43,088 bases of DNA from an uncultured Opitutia bacterium (GTDB taxonomy: Bacteria; Verrucomicrobiota; Verrucomicrobiia; Opitutales; Opitutaceae), in assembly GCA_903900845.1 (NCBI GenBank), contig CAIUOU010000050.1:1-43088 (forward strand), read 5' to 3'. A program made the position numbers and the translations under genes. The stretch's first letter is position 1; each line of letters opens with the position of its first letter. The notes under the pieces are model-generated. The model was not told the origin of the DNA, made no database searches, and saw nothing but the letters and a program-made list of their open reading frames with translations. This document shows, in pieces, positions 18,318-25,470 of this stretch.

Positions 18318-18446
18318 GTCGCGTCGGAGCCGCTGTTACGGGCTGGTTTTTCCGTGGGGCGTTCCCCACGCTCCGCGCACCCTCACGACGGTCCCGCGCC
18401 CGGAACTTCCCGTTCCCCGGCCATTCCGCCGGGAAGGCGATCCATC

Positions 18447-20939
18447 GTGCGCCGATACACCCCGCTTCTCCTCGCCGCCGCGACTCTCGCCGGTGCCGCG
18501 CCGGCCGATAACGCCCCGGCGGAAATCCTGCGTGAGCTCCGGAGCTTCGCCACCACCGGCACGCTGCTGCACGTCGCGGCGCATCCCGACGATGAGAACA
18601 CGCATCTCATCACCTATTTCGCGCGCGCGCGCGGCTACCGCACGGCGTACCTTTCACTGACGCGCGGGGATGGCGGGCAGAACGAAATCGGGCGGGAGTT
18701 TGACGAGAAGCTCGGCCTCGCGCGCACCCACGAGTTGCTGGTCGCGCGGCGCATCGACGGCGGCCGCCAGTTCTTCACCCGCGCGATCGACTTCGGTTAC
18801 TCCAAGTCCGTGGATGAGACGCTGCGCTTCTGGGACCGCCGTGAAGTGCTCGGCGACGTCGTTCGCGTCATCCGCATGTTCCGGCCCGATGTCGTCGTGA
18901 CGCGCTTTTCGCCCACGGGCGGCGGAACGCACGGCCACCACACGGCTTCCGGTCTGCTCGGCGTGGAGGCCGCTAAGCTGGCCGGAGATCCGGCCGCTTA
19001 TCCGGAACAGTTGCGCGAAGGCCTGGGTGTCTGGAGTCCGCGGCGCGTGCTCCTCAACGCCGGCGGGCCCGGCCGTGGCGGCGCGACGCCGTCGGGTGCG
19101 CTCAAAATGGATATCGGCGGGCGCGATTCCGCGAGCGGGGAGGGGCTTGGCGCGATCGCCAGCCGCAGCCGCGGTCAGCATATCACCCAGGGGTTCGGCG
19201 GCTTCGGCAGTCGAGGTCCGGGCGACGGCCCGAACGAGCAGGCGTTCCTTCTCCTGCACGGCGAGCCGGCGCAGCGGGATCTGTTTGACGGGGTGGAGAC
19301 CACGTGGGCGCGGTTCGGAACGAAGGGGAGCCGGGTGGCGAAGCTCACCGCGGAGGTGATTGATGGGTTCCAAAAGGACGACCCGGCGGCCAGCCTGCCC
19401 GCCCTGTTGCGCGTGCGTGCGGCGCTGGCTGAACTGCCGGCGGAGCCTCTGGTCGAGGACCGACGCGCGCAACTGGACCGGATCATCCAGGGAGCGGCGG
19501 GGATCTCGGTACGAAGCGAGTCCGCGCTCGCGGAGGTCGTCCCGGGCGAAACGTTGCGGGTCCGTTTCCAGGCGGGTTCCTCCGGCCGGGCGGCAGTACG
19601 ATGGACAGGCCTTCGCGCGTTCGGTGGCGATATTCCGCCGCCAGCTGCCGCGGTTGTTTCAGGGACTTCCGTTGCCGCGGTCGAGCATGTCGGCCGGATT
19701 CCCACCGACCTCGCGGTTTACCAGCCGTACTGGCTGCGTGAGGCGGGGCGCGACGGGATCGCGACGGTGCGGGATTCCTCGCTGATCGGACTCCCTGAGA
19801 ATCCCGTGGTTTTTCCGGTGGTGTACGAGTTTGAGGTGGCGGGGGAGAAGCTGCGCGTGGAAGACGAGCTGGCCGCTTTCGCCACGGCGGCCAAGGGCGG
19901 CGAACGGAGGCGCCGCGTGGATGTAATCGGGCCGGTTTCCCTGCGCCTGCCGTCCGAGGTCGTGCTTTTTGCGCCGGGAGCCAAACGTCGGGTCGAGGTT
20001 GATGTCGTGGCGGAACGGCCTTCCAGCGGCGGTGCCCGTCTGAGGGTGCCGGCGGGCTGGGTGGCGACGCCCGAAAAGGTGCCTTTCGATCTGGGGAAGC
20101 CCGGTGACTCCATCCGGGTGGCCTTTGATGTCACGGCACCCGCGGTGGTTGGAACCGCGACGCTTCTTGCGGAGGCGGAGGTCGGCGGCGTTTCCTGCAC
20201 GCGACAGCGGGTCGTGATTGATTACGCCCATCTGCCAGTGCTGCTGCTGCAGCCCGAGGCGCGCGTCAGGCTGATGGTCGCCGACGTGGCCTCGCGTCCG
20301 TCGCGTGTGGGGTATCTGCCGGGCGCCGGCGATGATGTGGCGCGCGCGCTTCTTCAGCTCGGTCACGAGGTGAAAACCCTGCGCGGAGCCGATTTGAACC
20401 CGGAGGGTTTGCGCGGCTTGTCGGCGGTGGTCATCGGCGTGCGGGCGTTCAACGAACGCGAGGATCTCGTGGAAACCCTGCCCGGCCTTTGGCGCTGGGT
20501 GGAGGCGGGCGGCACCGTGATCGCGCAGTACAACCGGCCCAACGGACTCGCGGCGCCCAAACTGGGGCCCTATGAGCTCTCGATCCAAGGGTCCGCGCCC
20601 CAGCTTCGTGTCACGGACGAGAAGGCTCCGGTGAGTTTTCTGCTGCCCGGCCATCGCGTGCTGAATCTTCCGAACCGGATCGATGAGGCGGACTTCGCGG
20701 GCTGGGTGCAGGAACGCGGAGCCTACTTTCCGAGCAGCTGGGACGAGTCGCGGCATGAGGCGGTGCTGGCGATGAGCGACCCGGGCGAGGCCGCGCTCCG
20801 CAGCTCGCTGCTGGTGGCCAGGCACGGCAAGGGAAAGTACGTCTACACGGGGCTGGCGTTCTTCCGTCAGTTGCCGGCCGGAGTTCCCGGCGCCTACCGG
20901 CTCTTCGCCAACCTGCTCGCTCTCGGGCCCGATTCATGA
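18447..20939 (+). CDS. Large secreted PIG-L family deacetylase
   Basis: The 830-residue protein has a signal peptide (RRYTPLLLAAATLAGAAPA) followed by a PIG-L/LmbE domain at about residues 35-260. The zinc motif is AAHPDDENTH (His46, Asp48-Asp49), and the third ligand is in GTHGHHTASGLL. Enzymes of this fold remove N-acetyl groups from GlcNAc-type sugars. The remaining 550 residues are beta-rich domains (LRVRFQAGSSGRAAVRWTGL, VGTATLLAEAEVGGV) and a ThuA/glutaminase-like region (LRGLSAVVIGVRAFNEREDL, GGTVIAQYNRPNG). The GTG at 18447 is preferred because it places the signal peptide first; the frame is open 31 codons further up with no export features. Its stop overlaps the next ATG, starting a chain of six coupled genes that ends in bacillithiol synthesis. 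It probably acts in the periplasm on a glycan; the substrate is unknown. Confidence 0.88.
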   Translation: MRRYTPLLLAAATLAGAAPADNAPAEILRELRSFATTGTLLHVAAHPDDENTHLITYFARARGYRTAYLSLTRGDGGQNEIGREFDEKLGLARTHELLVARRIDGGRQFFTRAIDFGYSKSVDETLRFWDRREVLGDVVRVIRMFRPDVVVTRFSPTGGGTHGHHTASGLLGVEAAKLAGDPAAYPEQLREGLGVWSPRRVLLNAGGPGRGGATPSGALKMDIGGRDSASGEGLGAIASRSRGQHITQGFGGFGSRGPGDGPNEQAFLLLHGEPAQRDLFDGVETTWARFGTKGSRVAKLTAEVIDGFQKDDPAASLPALLRVRAALAELPAEPLVEDRRAQLDRIIQGAAGISVRSESALAEVVPGETLRVRFQAGSSGRAAVRWTGLRAFGGDIPPPAAAVVSGTSVAAVEHVGRIPTDLAVYQPYWLREAGRDGIATVRDSSLIGLPENPVVFPVVYEFEVAGEKLRVEDELAAFATAAKGGERRRRVDVIGPVSLRLPSEVVLFAPGAKRRVEVDVVAERPSSGGARLRVPAGWVATPEKVPFDLGKPGDSIRVAFDVTAPAVVGTATLLAEAEVGGVSCTRQRVVIDYAHLPVLLLQPEARVRLMVADVASRPSRVGYLPGAGDDVARALLQLGHEVKTLRGADLNPEGLRGLSAVVIGVRAFNEREDLVETLPGLWRWVEAGGTVIAQYNRPNGLAAPKLGPYELSIQGSAPQLRVTDEKAPVSFLLPGHRVLNLPNRIDEADFAGWVQERGAYFPSSWDESRHEAVLAMSDPGEAALRSSLLVARHGKGKYVYTGLAFFRQLPAGVPGAYRLFANLLALGPDS

Positions 20940-21088
20940 ATGAGACGAAGAAAGCCTCCGCCTCCTTGGAGGACAAAGGTCCGCGGCTGCCGGGCTTCCG
21001 CACCTGGCGCGGTGTCTACCTGCTCGTGATCGGCACGTTTGTCGCGCTGGTGGTGGCGTTGACGATCTTCACCCGACTGCACGCATGA
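20936..21088 (+). CDS. 50-residue single-pass membrane protein
   Basis: This small gene fills the gap between the PIG-L deacetylase and the symporter exactly. Its ATG overlaps the deacetylase stop and its TGA overlaps the symporter ATG, both as ATGA. The product is a charged, soluble N-terminal stretch (MNETKKASASLEDKGPRLPG) followed by one transmembrane helix (YLLVIGTFVALVVALTIF) and the short end TRLHA. I do not recognise the family. The topology and place recall the small accessory subunits encoded just before some sodium/solute symporters (as with acetate and pantothenate permeases), so a symporter partner is the natural guess. It could also simply couple translation. Confidence 0.75.
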   Translation: MNETKKASASLEDKGPRLPGFRTWRGVYLLVIGTFVALVVALTIFTRLHA

Positions 21089-22779
21089 CCGCCCTCGATT
21101 GGATCGTGCTGCTGGGGACCATGCTGGGCATCGCGGCCTACGGCACGTGGCGCACCAGGCGCACGAACCAGCTCGATACCTACCTCAAGGGATCCAGCTC
21201 CAGCGGCTCGTTCACCATCGGGGTTTCCGTCGCGGCGACGCAGGCGAGTGCGATCACGTTTCTTTCGATCCCGGGGCAGGGCTTTGAAAGCGGGATCGGT
21301 TTCGTGCAGAATTATTTCGGGTTGCCGCTCGCCTTGATCCTGGTGTGCGCGGTCTTCCTGCCGATCTATCGGCGGCTCGGGGTTTACACCGCTTACGAGT
21401 ACCTGGGTAAACGCTTTGACACGAAGACGCGTCTGTTGGGCGCCGGTTTGTTCCTTCTGCAGCGCGGACTCGCGAGCGGGGTCACGATCTACGCGCCGGC
21501 GATCATTCTCTCGACCGTGCTGGGCTGGCGTGTCGACCACACGATCATCGGTACGGGGTTGCTCGTGATCATCTACACGGTCACGGGCGGAAGCGCCGCC
21601 GTGAGCCTGACGCAGAAGTGGCAGATGGGCGTGATCTTCGCCGGCATGGCGACGGCGTTCGTCGTGCTGCTCCTGCGCCTGCCGCCCGGGGCGCTCGAGG
21701 TGGCCGGAGCGATGGGTCGGTTGGAGGCGGTGGACTTCTCCCTGGACCCCGATCGGCGCTACACGCTGTGGAGTGGTTTGCTCGGGGGTTTCTTCCTGTC
21801 GCTGTCCTACTTCGGCACGGACCAGTCGCAGGTGCAGCGCTACATCGGCGGCGGCGGTCTGCGCGAGGGCCGCCTCGGGCTCGTCTTCAATGCCCTGCTG
21901 AAGATCCCGATGCAGTTCATGATCCTGCTCCTCGGCGCGCTGGTCTTCGTCTTCTACACCTTTGAGCGGGCCCCCGTCTTCTTCAACCAGGCGGAGTGGC
22001 GCCAGCGGGTTGCGGGGCCTGAAGGGGCGCGGTTTCGCGCCATCGAGGAGCGCCACGACGCGCTGCACGACGAACGCCGGAAGGCGGCCCGGGCGTGGCT
22101 CGAGGTCCGGGACGGTGGCGATCCGCGGTTGGCGGCCGACGCTCGCGCATCGTTGCTGGCGGCGCAGAGGAACGTGGATGCCGTGCGCAAGGAGGCCAAG
22201 TCGGCGCTGACGGCCGCGGATCCCCGGGTGAAGATCAAGGATTCGGACTATGTTTTCATCACCTTCATTGTGACGCAGCTGCCGCCCGGGGTGGTCGGCC
22301 TGCTGGTGGCGGTGATGTTCGCGGCCGCGCTTGGCTCGAAGGCCGGGGAACTCAACGCCCTCGGCACGACGACAACGATCGATCTCTGGCGGCGGTTCCG
22401 GCCCCTTGCGGCCGCCGATGAGGCGCGGAACGTCCGCACGGCAAAGTGGTTCACCGCGCTGTGGGGGCTTTTCGCGATCGCCTTTGCGCTTTTCGCGAGC
22501 TTCTCGGAGAATCTGATCGAGGCGATCAACATCCTGGGGTCGCTTTTCTACGGGGTAGTGCTCGGGATTTTTCTGGTGGCGTTCTTCGCGCGGCGGGTCG
22601 GCGGGACGGCGGTGTTCGCGGCCGCCTTGGTCGCGCAGGCGCTGGTCATCGTGCTCTATCGTTCCCTCTCGATCTCCTATCTCTGGTACAACCTGATCGG
22701 TTGCGCGTCCTGCGTGCTGCTTGCGCTCGTCTTGCAGGCGGTTCTCCCGCGCCAGGCTGGGGAGGGCGCGTCGGCGTGA
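21085..22779 (+). CDS. Sodium/solute symporter (SSS family)
   Basis: The 564-residue inner-membrane transporter couples solute uptake to sodium entry. Family hallmarks are the N-terminal helix ALDWIVLLGTMLGIAAYGTW, the segment SFTIGVSVAATQASAITFLS and the repeated long hydrophobic helices (about 12-13). The motif GLLVAVMFAAALGSKAGELNA precedes LGTTTTIDLWRRF, as in SGLT-like members. Between helices, at about residues 292-390, sits a charged coiled insert (FRAIEERHDALHDERRKAAR, ARASLLAAQRNVDAVRKEA) with a soluble character, longer than in typical members. Start and stop overlap both neighbours by 4 bases. With the PIG-L deacetylase it could form a deacetylate-then-import pair for an amino sugar; that is inference. 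Confidence 0.92.
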   Translation: MTALDWIVLLGTMLGIAAYGTWRTRRTNQLDTYLKGSSSSGSFTIGVSVAATQASAITFLSIPGQGFESGIGFVQNYFGLPLALILVCAVFLPIYRRLGVYTAYEYLGKRFDTKTRLLGAGLFLLQRGLASGVTIYAPAIILSTVLGWRVDHTIIGTGLLVIIYTVTGGSAAVSLTQKWQMGVIFAGMATAFVVLLLRLPPGALEVAGAMGRLEAVDFSLDPDRRYTLWSGLLGGFFLSLSYFGTDQSQVQRYIGGGGLREGRLGLVFNALLKIPMQFMILLLGALVFVFYTFERAPVFFNQAEWRQRVAGPEGARFRAIEERHDALHDERRKAARAWLEVRDGGDPRLAADARASLLAAQRNVDAVRKEAKSALTAADPRVKIKDSDYVFITFIVTQLPPGVVGLLVAVMFAAALGSKAGELNALGTTTTIDLWRRFRPLAAADEARNVRTAKWFTALWGLFAIAFALFASFSENLIEAINILGSLFYGVVLGIFLVAFFARRVGGTAVFAAALVAQALVIVLYRSLSISYLWYNLIGCASCVLLALVLQAVLPRQAGEGASA

Positions 22780-23540
22780 GTGCCGGACCGGTCATCTGCC
22801 TCGGCCAACAACCGTGTGGTTTCTTCCCGCGACGCTTCCTGTACGCCAAGCTCCAGACGGCGCGCCGGGTGCAGGCTGAGATCGGTGGTGAAATCGTGCT
22901 TTTCCTGCACGACAGCGATCACGATCCGCGCGAGACGCAGACCATCGTGCGGCACCGGCACACCGGCCAGCCCGCGACCTTGAATTTCACTTTCGAGAAC
23001 CGGCTGCAGCGCAAATGGTCGCCGCTCCACCTCAAGCGGGTTCCGGCGGGCTGGCAGGCCGGCATGGCGAGGCAGCTGGGAGCCTACGTTTCCCCCGAGC
23101 GGGTTGAGCAGTTCAAGTCGGTTGGTGCCGCCACCGTGGCGGACTTCTGCCTCGAGCTTTACCGCCGTATGGGGCTCCTCGAAGGGATCCGGGTCGTGCG
23201 ATCCAGCGACCCGGCGGTGCGGCGTGCGGGTGGAAGACCGGCGGATTTCTTCGTCGACGTGCCGCATGAAGGGGAGGTCGTGCGCGCCCGCTGGCGCGCC
23301 GGCGGGCTCCAGCTGCACGAAGGGGGAGACAGCTATGTCAGTTTGCCGGCGACGGATTTCACGGACGAGCAGGTGACGCCTGCCCGCGATACCCGCCTGC
23401 CGTGGATGCAGGCGGCGGTCCAATGCACTCACTACGTCGCCGGGGCTGGTGAACAAGCGTACTTGCGCCGCGAGGATGCGCCTGAAATCACGTTTGTGGA
23501 CCGAGACCCCATCGACCGTGCGGACGAAGCCTACCACTGA
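22776..23540 (+). CDS. Compact BshC-like protein, putative bacillithiol cysteine-adding enzyme
   Basis: The 254-residue protein starts at a GTG overlapping the symporter stop. Two blocks recall BshC. The N-terminal Rossmann part has ICLGQQPCGFF (residues 7-17) and VLFLHDSDHDPRET (41-54), like the GQQ and 'W-x-A-S-E-D-H-D' blocks of BshC. The C-terminal part has ARDTRLPWMQAAVQCTHYVA with GAGEQAYL (to residue 230), like the 'R-P-L-x-Q-D-x-x-L-P-x-x-x-Y-V-G-G-P-x-E-x-A-Y' block. Known BshC proteins have about 530-540 residues with a long coiled coil, which is missing here. The next two genes are clear bshB and bshA, so this one stands exactly where the third enzyme of the pathway is expected. 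It would join cysteine to GlcN-malate. The assignment rests on motif reading and position; the activity is unproven. Confidence 0.7.
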   Translation: MSAGPVICLGQQPCGFFPRRFLYAKLQTARRVQAEIGGEIVLFLHDSDHDPRETQTIVRHRHTGQPATLNFTFENRLQRKWSPLHLKRVPAGWQAGMARQLGAYVSPERVEQFKSVGAATVADFCLELYRRMGLLEGIRVVRSSDPAVRRAGGRPADFFVDVPHEGEVVRARWRAGGLQLHEGGDSYVSLPATDFTDEQVTPARDTRLPWMQAAVQCTHYVAGAGEQAYLRREDAPEITFVDRDPIDRADEAYH

Positions 23541-24246
23541 GCGTACCCTGCTTGTTTTCGGGGCCCACCCCGACGACATCGAGTTCGGGTGTGGAGGCGT
23601 GGTGGCCGGCGAAGTGCAGCGGGGGAGATCCGCGCGCTTGGTGGTCTGCTCACGCGGAGAGGCGGGGAGCAACGGCGCGCCGGCGGTTCGCGCGCGCGAG
23701 GCTCGCCGCGCCGCGCGGGAACTCGGAGCCGCGCTCGAGTTCGCCGATCTCGGGGGCGATGCCCACTTTTGCGCGACTCCCGCGCAGGCGATCAAGTTGG
23801 CGGCGGTCATCCGCCGGGTGCGTCCGGCTGTCGTGCTCGCCCCGACCGTGGAGGAAAACCAGCACCCCGACCATGTAGTGCTCGGGAGGTTGGTGCGCGA
23901 CGCCTGCCGTTTGGCGCGTTTCGGCGGTTTGCGCGAGCTGCGCGGCCGTCCTCCGCACGCCATCGGCCAGCTTTTCTTCTATGCGATCACCGCCGAGGCC
24001 GAGCCGGCGGGAATGGGCCGCGTTTTGGTGGACGTCTCGGAGGCGGATGTTCGCACCTCCTGGGTTTCGGCCATGAAGGCGCACGCGTCGCAGTTACGGA
24101 CACGTGACTACGTTGAGTTTCAGCTCACACGCGCGCGGCTGCACGGTCTGATGGCCGGCGTCGAGTACGCCCAGCCACTCTTCCCCGCTTCGCCGCTGCT
24201 GGTGGATTCACTGGGAAGTCTGGAGCGCTCGGCGCGGCGTTTCTGA
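23518..24246 (+). CDS. bshB: BshB-type GlcNAc-malate deacetylase (PIG-L family)
   Basis: The 242-residue zinc enzyme would remove the acetyl group from N-acetylglucosaminyl-malate, the second step of bacillithiol synthesis. The metal motif LVFGAHPDDIEFGCGG (His17, Asp19, Asp20) opens the protein. The conserved GEAGSNGAPAVRAREARRAA and the third-ligand block VEENQHPDHVVLGRL follow, as does the C-terminal VSAMKAHASQLR. The length and the 'GAHPDDIE' start match the BshB1 subgroup and not the larger deacetylase at 18447. The start is uncertain: GTG at 23518 gives a normal short N-terminus and overlaps the BshC-like gene by 23 bases; an ATG at 23476 and a GTG at 23449 lie further up. bshA begins 3 bases after the stop. 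Confidence 0.88.
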   Translation: MRTKPTTERTLLVFGAHPDDIEFGCGGVVAGEVQRGRSARLVVCSRGEAGSNGAPAVRAREARRAARELGAALEFADLGGDAHFCATPAQAIKLAAVIRRVRPAVVLAPTVEENQHPDHVVLGRLVRDACRLARFGGLRELRGRPPHAIGQLFFYAITAEAEPAGMGRVLVDVSEADVRTSWVSAMKAHASQLRTRDYVEFQLTRARLHGLMAGVEYAQPLFPASPLLVDSLGSLERSARRF

Positions 24247-24248
24247 CG

Positions 24249-25400
24249 ATGCCCGGCCGGAGCTTTCGCGTCGGTATCACGTGTTACCCCTCGGTGGGCG
24301 GCTCGGGCATTCTGGCTTCGGCCCTGGGGGAGGAACTGGCCCGCCGCGGGCACGACGTGCATTTCATCAGCTACGACCGGCCATTCCGGCTGCCGGCGGC
24401 GGCCCCTCGGATCCATTTCCATCCGGTCGAGATCAACGACTACGAGTTGTTCAAGTATCCGGACTATACGTTGCCGCTTTCCGTCAAGATGGCGGAGGTG
24501 GCGCGGGATCACGCTCTGGACCTGCTGCACGTGCATTATGCCGTGCCGCATGCCACCGCGGCGATCCTCGCGCGCGCCATGTCTCGGTCCGGCCAGGAGC
24601 CACGAGTCGTGACGACATTACACGGCACGGACACGACCTTGTTGGGACGTGATGCCGGTTACGGGCCGGCGATCAGCCATGCGCTGACGCGTTCGGATGC
24701 CGTCACCGCGGTCTCCGGTTGGCTACGGGATGAGACGGTACGTTTGCTGAAGGTTCGGCGCCCCATTGATGTGATCCCGAATTTTTTCACCCCTCGACCG
24801 CCCGGCCGGTCCCGCGCGGAGATCCGGGCGGAGCTCGGAGTGGGGGAGGCGCCTCTTGTGGTGCATGTTTCGAACCTCCGGCCGGTGAAGCGGATTGACC
24901 TGCTCCTGGAGACCATCGCGCGCACGTTGCCGGGGCGGGATTTCCGGCTGCTCGTGCTTGCGGGCGGGGATTTCCGTCCATTCGTCGCGCAGGCGGAGCG
25001 TTTGGGTGTCGCGAATCGCGTGGTGGTACGCGAGAATGTGTTCGAGGTGGAGGACTACGTCGCGGCGGCGGACGTCGGACTGTTCACCTCCGACTCCGAA
25101 AGTTTTTGTCTGGGAATTCTTGAGGCGATGTTCCTTGGCGTGCCGAGCGTTTCGACTGGGGTCGGTGGAGTGCCGGAGGTCGTGGAAGACGGCAGGACCG
25201 GCTTGCTCGCGGCAGCGGGGGACGGGGCCGGGCTTTCCGCCGCCCTCGCCGCCCTGCTGGATGACCCGGCCCGCCGCCTCGAGATGGGTAAGGCGGCGCG
25301 TCATCGCGCCCGCGCATGTTTTTCCGCCGAGGCGGTCGTCCCGTGCTATGAGGAACTCTACGCGCGCGTCATCGCCGCCCCGCCCACCCCCGCCTCCTAA
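24249..25400 (+). CDS. bshA: BshA-type glycosyltransferase (GT4), bacillithiol synthesis
   Basis: The 383-residue enzyme would join GlcNAc from UDP-GlcNAc to L-malate, the first step of bacillithiol synthesis. The N-terminal GT4 domain reads VGITCYPSVGGSGILASALG, GHDVHFISYDRPFRL, DYELFKYPDYTLPLSVKMAE, LLHVHYAVPHATAAILA and VVTTLHGTDTTLLG, all strongly BshA-like. The C-terminal domain has the UDP-sugar site VHVSNLRPVKRIDLL and the E-x7-E motif ESFCLGILEAMFLG. The C-terminal tail (IAAPPTPAS) and stop codon lie at the left arm of a 20-bp inverted repeat, which may have replaced the original end. Being in the same chain as bshB and the BshC-like gene, it gives a complete predicted pathway. It is last in the operon. 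Confidence 0.93.
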   Translation: MPGRSFRVGITCYPSVGGSGILASALGEELARRGHDVHFISYDRPFRLPAAAPRIHFHPVEINDYELFKYPDYTLPLSVKMAEVARDHALDLLHVHYAVPHATAAILARAMSRSGQEPRVVTTLHGTDTTLLGRDAGYGPAISHALTRSDAVTAVSGWLRDETVRLLKVRRPIDVIPNFFTPRPPGRSRAEIRAELGVGEAPLVVHVSNLRPVKRIDLLLETIARTLPGRDFRLLVLAGGDFRPFVAQAERLGVANRVVVRENVFEVEDYVAAADVGLFTSDSESFCLGILEAMFLGVPSVSTGVGGVPEVVEDGRTGLLAAAGDGAGLSAALAALLDDPARRLEMGKAARHRARACFSAEAVVPCYEELYARVIAAPPTPAS

Positions 25401-25470
25401 GGGGTCAGGGCGTTGAACGTTTAAACCGCGTTACCTTCTGGAAAAACGCCCAACGCCCTGACCCCTTAGG
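25396..25470. repeat. Perfect 20-bp inverted repeat, REP/BIME-like
   Basis: Left arm CCTAAGGGGTCAGGGCGTTG (25396-25415) and right arm at 25451-25470 are exact reverse complements around a 35-base spacer. The likeness extends inwards imperfectly (GAACGTTTAAA against GGGCGTTTTTC when the right side is reverse-complemented), so each side looks like a copy of one unit of about 30 bases in opposite orientation. The left arm includes the bshA stop codon. The GGGGTCAGG core resembles REP units mobilised by RAYT transposases. As RNA it could fold into a long hairpin and act as terminator for the bsh operon. Confidence 0.75.

Follow-up and report, generated by a model that had tools for sequence, protein, structure and literature searches.

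The closest described counterpart of the protein considered here is BshC of the bacillithiol pathway (PF10079, the N-terminal Rossmann-like domain, together with PF24850, the C-terminal coiled coil; TIGR03998; structure 4wbd), a family whose reaction, in the relevant part of a 2015 review, is described as never demonstrated in vitro at that date and whose coiled coil is said to serve dimerization (PMC4360819). The same part of the review places MshC, the cysteine ligase of mycothiol synthesis, at the analogous step of its own pathway. As for taxonomic distribution, a 2018 survey presents the Verrucomicrobia, in the portion that deals with them, as having neither a documented nor a predicted low-molecular-weight thiol (PMC6282198). 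To count as orthologs in that survey (Hiras et al.), proteins had to be of similar length and share at least 30% of their residues; a 2025 survey of NmbA (PMC12719100), the main text of which does not name Verrucomicrobia, required similar length and more than 80% coverage. Under the length, identity, and coverage rules of PMC6282198 and PMC12719100, as worded in their accessible text, a protein as short as the one reported below was probably passed over.

Here, we describe a protein of 254 residues which is in all likelihood a variant of BshC that works like BshC, lies outside the present family models, and lacks one of the domains that define the family. No description of a short BshC was found in the accessible text of the open-licence literature on bacillithiol/BshC, Verrucomicrobia/Verrucomicrobiota, and Planctomycet (including PMC6282198, PMC12719100, PMC6336425, PMC4360819, and PMC10881302), and a search of the open-licence literature for bacillithiol in combination with Opitut returned nothing.

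The short gene, its neighbors, and its family

The window, that is, the whole stretch of 43,088 nucleotides analyzed here, comes from an uncultured bacterium of the Opitutaceae. The initial annotation had noted a 254-residue reading frame standing in the place of bshC ahead of bshB and bshA, and this arrangement is confirmed (table 1). Like the gene of full-length BshC, the short gene thus lies beside bshA and bshB. The BshA of the window scores 390.5 bits against TIGR03999, over the cut-off of 273.7, and its BshB resembles BshB1, with 135.5 bits against TIGR04001, under the equivalog cut-off of 182.5. The start of bshB is ambiguous (TTG at 23494 or GTG at 23518) and overlaps the end of the short gene, the GTG start of which itself overlaps the TGA of the preceding symporter gene (GTGA), so that the symporter and the short gene probably form a single transcription unit.

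Table 1. Coordinates of the features discussed in the text (window positions unless a locus is named).
Feature	Position	Strand	Evidence or remarks
Sodium:solute symporter gene	21085..22779	+	PF00474 9.4e-36; overlaps start of short gene
Short bshC-like gene (mini-bshC)	22776..23540	+	254 aa, GTG start, TGA stop; family alignments, AF2 model, Foldseek match to 4wbd
GQQ-x12-K block, residues 6-25	22791..22850	+	Ungapped versus BshC; G, Q, Q, K invariant in 105 loci and 6/6 BshCs
LFLHDSDHDPRETQ, residues 42-55	22899..22940	+	Corresponds to BshC EDHDxxE block; D, H, E invariant in both sets
R-x15-GxGExxY block, residues 207-230	23394..23465	+	Ungapped versus BshC; R, G, E, Y invariant in 105 loci and 6/6 BshCs
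Divergent bshB (PIG-L deacetylase)	23518..24246	+	PF02585 1.9e-23; TIGR04001 2.2e-39
bshA (N-acetyl-alpha-D-glucosaminyl L-malate synthase)	24249..25400	+	TIGR03999 7.2e-117
SAM methyltransferase-like ORF before f46 bshC, locus L136	2573-3316	-	By eye
SAM methyltransferase-like ORF before f46 bshC, locus L137	738-1496	+	By eye
SAM methyltransferase-like ORF before f46 bshC, locus L138	699-1496	+	By eye

Two further elements of the window flank this gene set. Upstream of the symporter, positions 18354-20939 encode an 861-residue protein with an N-terminal PIG-L deacetylase domain (PF02585, 3.8e-15), a match to which is present in 63 of 80 related loci. After bshA, positions 25399-25467 hold a perfect 16-base inverted repeat, AAGGGGTCAGGGCGTT, for which 0.02 matches are expected by chance; exact copies occur in one of 174 fetched loci, namely the window's own (L154), and the repeat is possibly a terminator or the scar of a mobile repeat.

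Six peptide patterns drawn from the window protein and run over one genome per species (84,980 species) retrieved 259 relatives, the best 80 of which were fetched with their surroundings; no relative was found on plasmids. Of these best 80 of 259, 79 have a bshB match adjoining the short gene, 75 a bshA match downstream on the same strand, and 73 a symporter match upstream. As to the five loci devoid of a bshA match, three (L059, L078, and L107) end at most 1.2 kb from the gene, and the two others (L084 and L103) show none within about 5 kb. Two records bear unexpected titles, Candidatus Obscuribacterales (L108) and Akkermansia muciniphila (L109), with bshB, bshA, and symporter matches placed around the short gene as in Opitutaceae; they are perhaps mislabeled or contaminated metagenome-assembled genomes.

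Across a set of 105 loci (L031-L135, comprising 100 distinct proteins, with some repeats and with the copy of the window counted), the short protein measures 253-282 residues, with starts chosen by script, and shares 51-87% identity with the window protein, own copy excluded. Between the window and L031, differences per codon amount to 0.114 for position 1, 0.063 for position 2, and 0.398 for position 3, and this concentration at position 3 indicates a protein under purifying selection and no chance reading frame. A pseudogene or a chance truncation is ruled out by this pattern together with the constancy of length. Reading upstream from the start, an in-frame stop is reached in no more than 72 codons in 72 of the 105 loci (the nearest at one codon), which excludes a hidden N-terminal half in those loci; the first such stop is farther than 72 codons in 32 others, and the contig ends first in the remaining one.

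Kinship with BshC in sequence, core residues, and predicted fold

At the level of sequence similarity alone, the link to BshC is faint. The window protein matched none of the BshC models of Pfam and NCBIfam (PF10079, PF24850, TIGR03998), its best Pfam match being AAA_28 at 0.065, and a phmmer search of PDB sequences gave a best E of 0.11 and no BshC chain. More divergent members of the family come closer: the protein of L133 matches PF10079 with E 8.6e-6 and 25.8 bits, just below the curated cut-off of 27, and TIGR03998 with E 2e-4 and 20.4 bits, far under a cut-off of 265.8 that applies to the whole length. Both matches cover a common stretch, residues 22-155, and since the two models describe one family, they do not count as independent evidence. 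In an alignment of 18 members (A3), each model is matched by three proteins, possibly close kin and including that of L133, and in a second alignment (A2), one of 56 members matches PF10079, weakly (0.056). The HMM comparison with BshC proposed in the initial annotation hence holds for divergent members, below curated cut-offs, but not for the window protein, which matches no model.

Profile methods gave results of the same order. An hhalign comparison of the A3 alignment with three BshCs was not significant (E 0.1, probability 0.6%) and aligned the block from GQQ to DHD only; a forced global profile alignment was low-scoring and collinear over BshC residues ~73-375. For reference, we used six BshCs of 521-554 residues, three from the phylum and three from plasmids (Bacillus, Paenibacillus, and Deinococcus). 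An HMM built on these six ranked the short family modestly higher than other proteins among 3112 ORFs of the fetched loci and window (best E 0.2, AUC 0.77, the latter for 150 short-family versus 2955 other ORFs, with seven BshCs set aside and some short-family fragments counted among the others). Conversely, the family profile found nothing significant in the six BshCs (best E 2.4), and in PDB sequences, it did not find 4wbd and returned two glutathione transferases at E ~2.

Twelve positions, aligned without gaps, are common to the 105 short-family loci and the six BshCs (G, Q, Q, K, D, H, D, E, R, G, E, and Y), the second D of the DHDxxE block being kept in 99% of the loci and in all six BshCs. 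The three motif blocks that had been picked out by eye as recalling BshC are thus all present; GQQ proves invariant in the family, as do D, H, and E in the remaining blocks. Further positions of these blocks that are invariant in the six BshCs are not kept in the short family (e.g. A92, G93, W128, and P335). Beyond the shared twelve, the short family has invariant residues of its own, namely C14, R20, H45, D46, R204, D205, C217, and H219.

Structure prediction and comparison with BshC, which had been put forward beforehand as a check, point to the same enzyme. An AlphaFold2 model built from 56 sequences (mean pLDDT 93.9, pTM 0.90) was searched with Foldseek against 350,542 PDB chains, and the first-ranked match was 4wbd, the BshC of B. 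subtilis, with E 2.5e-9 and a probability of 1.00 (TMq 0.67, TMt 0.34, rmsd 5.4, 14% identity). The Rossmann-like core fold of 4wbd is present in the predicted model of the short protein, which hence resembles BshC in both predicted core fold and ungapped core residues. In the Foldseek search, 4wbd was also the only match with E <= 1e-3. Class I aminoacyl-tRNA synthetases follow with a far weaker likeness of fold (TyrRS from 8e-3, GluRS from 1.4e-2), and they differ in that the short gene sits among bsh genes. MshC, despite its analogous pathway step, is absent from the best 50 structural matches of the model.

With regard to what is missing, the suggestion that about half the length of BshC is gone, coiled coil included, is borne out, and losses elsewhere can be added to it. 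Residue G10 of the short protein is equivalent to G89 of the 539-residue BshC of B. velezensis, which places the N-terminal loss at ~79 residues. The lost coiled-coil domain corresponds, as delimited by PF24850, to residues 380-539 of the same BshC; this domain is present in all six comparison BshCs and is not matched in the window protein. Taking the end of the short protein to fall close to residue 375 of BshC, as the forced alignment would have it, some 42 internal residues may be missing as well, a figure to be taken as an estimate.

Distribution of the short gene and of full-length bshC

To place the short gene within the phylum, 387 Verrucomicrobiota genomes sampled evenly, the window's own included, were searched for bshA at E <= 1e-60. 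The gene was present in 28 of them, 25 of which carry the short protein and no PF10079 match over the cut-off; the other three, all of one family (f46), carry a full-length BshC over the cut-off and lack the short protein. The two forms thus exclude each other among the 28 genomes with bshA, and the remaining 359 genomes have neither. In all 25 genomes with the short gene, it lies on the same contig and strand as bshA, 18-1042 bp apart. For two of these genomes, the short gene stands only 18-26 bp from the bshA match (L119/L164 in G322; L129/L163 in G305), a gap too small to accommodate bshB, which may be located at another place in these genomes or have a substitute.

A second sample, made of the window's genome and 56 relatives, gave a concordant picture, with bshA in 32 of 57 genomes, all 32 with the short protein. 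Short-protein matches were found in 33 genomes, one copy (G016) being split over two contigs, and the additional genome (G052, 50% complete) holding a 36-residue fragment with no bshA found. G027 carries the short gene on one contig and bshA on another. The second, full-length bshC that the initial annotation had advised looking for was encountered neither in the genome of the window itself (96% complete), where PF10079 has no match, nor in any of the 57 genomes, nor, over the cut-off, in any of 252 genomes of the family; the sole match under the cut-off in the latter, in G337 (6e-4) and also seen in the sample of 387, corresponds to the short protein. A second, full-length bshC is rejected on these counts. 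The co-occurrence figures come from samples of 387 and 57 genomes that overlap, from related genomes that are not independent, and from searches that score a limited number of first-look candidates. What the initial annotation had named as contrary to its reading, a full-length bshC elsewhere combined with a different fold, did not occur, given the fold match to 4wbd and the lack of PF10079 matches. Outside family f46, every genome of these samples in which bshA was found thus has the short protein in place of full BshC.

The results for YpdA and BrxA/B count against an ordinary bacillithiol economy. No YpdA (TIGR04018) over the cut-off of 339.9 was found in the 57 genomes; weaker matches occur in all 57, the best at 144 bits, and in all 14 controls. 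BrxA/B (PF06491) was found in none of the 57 either, by a model that also misses two of three BshC-bearing controls, since it matches B. subtilis only, whereas PF10079 matches three controls. GCS2 (PF04107), the only glutamate-cysteine ligase family searched, is present in three of the 57 genomes, none of them with the short protein.

Predicted role and alternative readings

The short protein is very probably a minimal BshC, predicted to ligate cysteine to GlcN-malate. Its predicted fold, the HMM matches below cut-off in divergent members, and the lack of a full-length bshC support the initial suggestion of a minimal or divergent cysteine-adding enzyme. Such an enzyme would consist of the Rossmann-like core of BshC, with its class I aminoacyl-tRNA synthetase-like fold, relieved of the N-terminal extension, of part of the interior, and of the dimerizing coiled-coil domain. 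In the proposed pathway, BshA would first join UDP-GlcNAc and malate into GlcNAc-malate, the neighboring BshB would then deacetylate this compound to GlcN-malate, and the short protein would join cysteine to the freed amino group, yielding bacillithiol or a close relative, with activation of the carboxyl group of cysteine as the most likely chemistry. The analysis itself shows the gene with its conservation and its operon, the exclusive replacement of full-length BshC in the sampled genomes with bshA, the match of the predicted fold, and the core residues in common; we infer that the amino acid is cysteine, that GlcN-malate accepts it, that ATP is used, and that bacillithiol is the product. 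In a wider formulation, it is reasonably likely that Opitutaceae and some neighboring Verrucomicrobiota have a half-size, coiled-coil-free BshC with a self-sufficient catalytic core and use it to make a low-molecular-weight thiol. This thiol would be either bacillithiol or a variant of it not yet described, with reductases distinct from YpdA and BrxA/B acting on it.

The alternative that survives best, though we regard it as unlikely, also starts from a ligase of BshC fold acting at the same step, but one which would add something other than plain cysteine or use a modified acceptor, and would thereby make a new thiol or a new GlcN-malate conjugate. The strong divergence of the core from BshC, as reflected in the 14% identity of the Foldseek alignment, and the extra residues invariant in the short family would fit such a change of substrate, as would the divergence of BshB. 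Since YpdA does not exceed its cut-off and BrxA/B was not found in the 57 genomes, the product may indeed differ from bacillithiol; another reductase, or a thiol other than bacillithiol, is possible. However, other reductases could stand in for YpdA and BrxA/B, the short family retains core residues that do not vary among the six BshCs, and BshA exceeds its equivalog cut-off, so that the GlcNAc-malate backbone is probably unchanged.

Much less probable is a split or partner-dependent BshC, in which the short protein would be the Rossmann half and a separate protein would supply the coiled coil or activate it. Such a scheme draws on the role of the coiled coil: because full-length BshC dimerizes through it, according to the passage of PMC4360819 that treats this domain, its loss calls for an explanation. 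Yet the predicted model is confident nearly throughout, and the operon leaves little room for a further gene, as in 79 of 80 loci the start of the bshB match falls between ~60 bp ahead of the end of the short gene and ~370 bp beyond it. A stand-alone coiled-coil partner is moreover rejected by the finding of PF24850 in none of the 57 genomes. Finally, that an unrelated nucleotide-binding protein merely happens to be placed in the operon, as the lack of any BshC match for the window protein itself and its best Pfam match to AAA_28 might suggest, is hardly credible against the predicted fold match, the shared core residues, and the exclusive association with bshA across the genomes sampled.

If the reading as a minimal BshC is true, the short protein shows how little of BshC is needed. 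As a natural enzyme devoid of the N-terminal part and of the coiled coil, it would mark the residues needed for the chemistry, and it would offer a smaller target for reconstitution of the BshC reaction. It would also point to a protective thiol in a group listed in 2018 as having none predicted. The three f46 genomes with classical bsh genes are a further exception within the phylum to the picture drawn in the portion of the 2018 survey on Verrucomicrobia. In these genomes, the ORF just before the full-length bshC resembles, by eye, a SAM methyltransferase (table 1).
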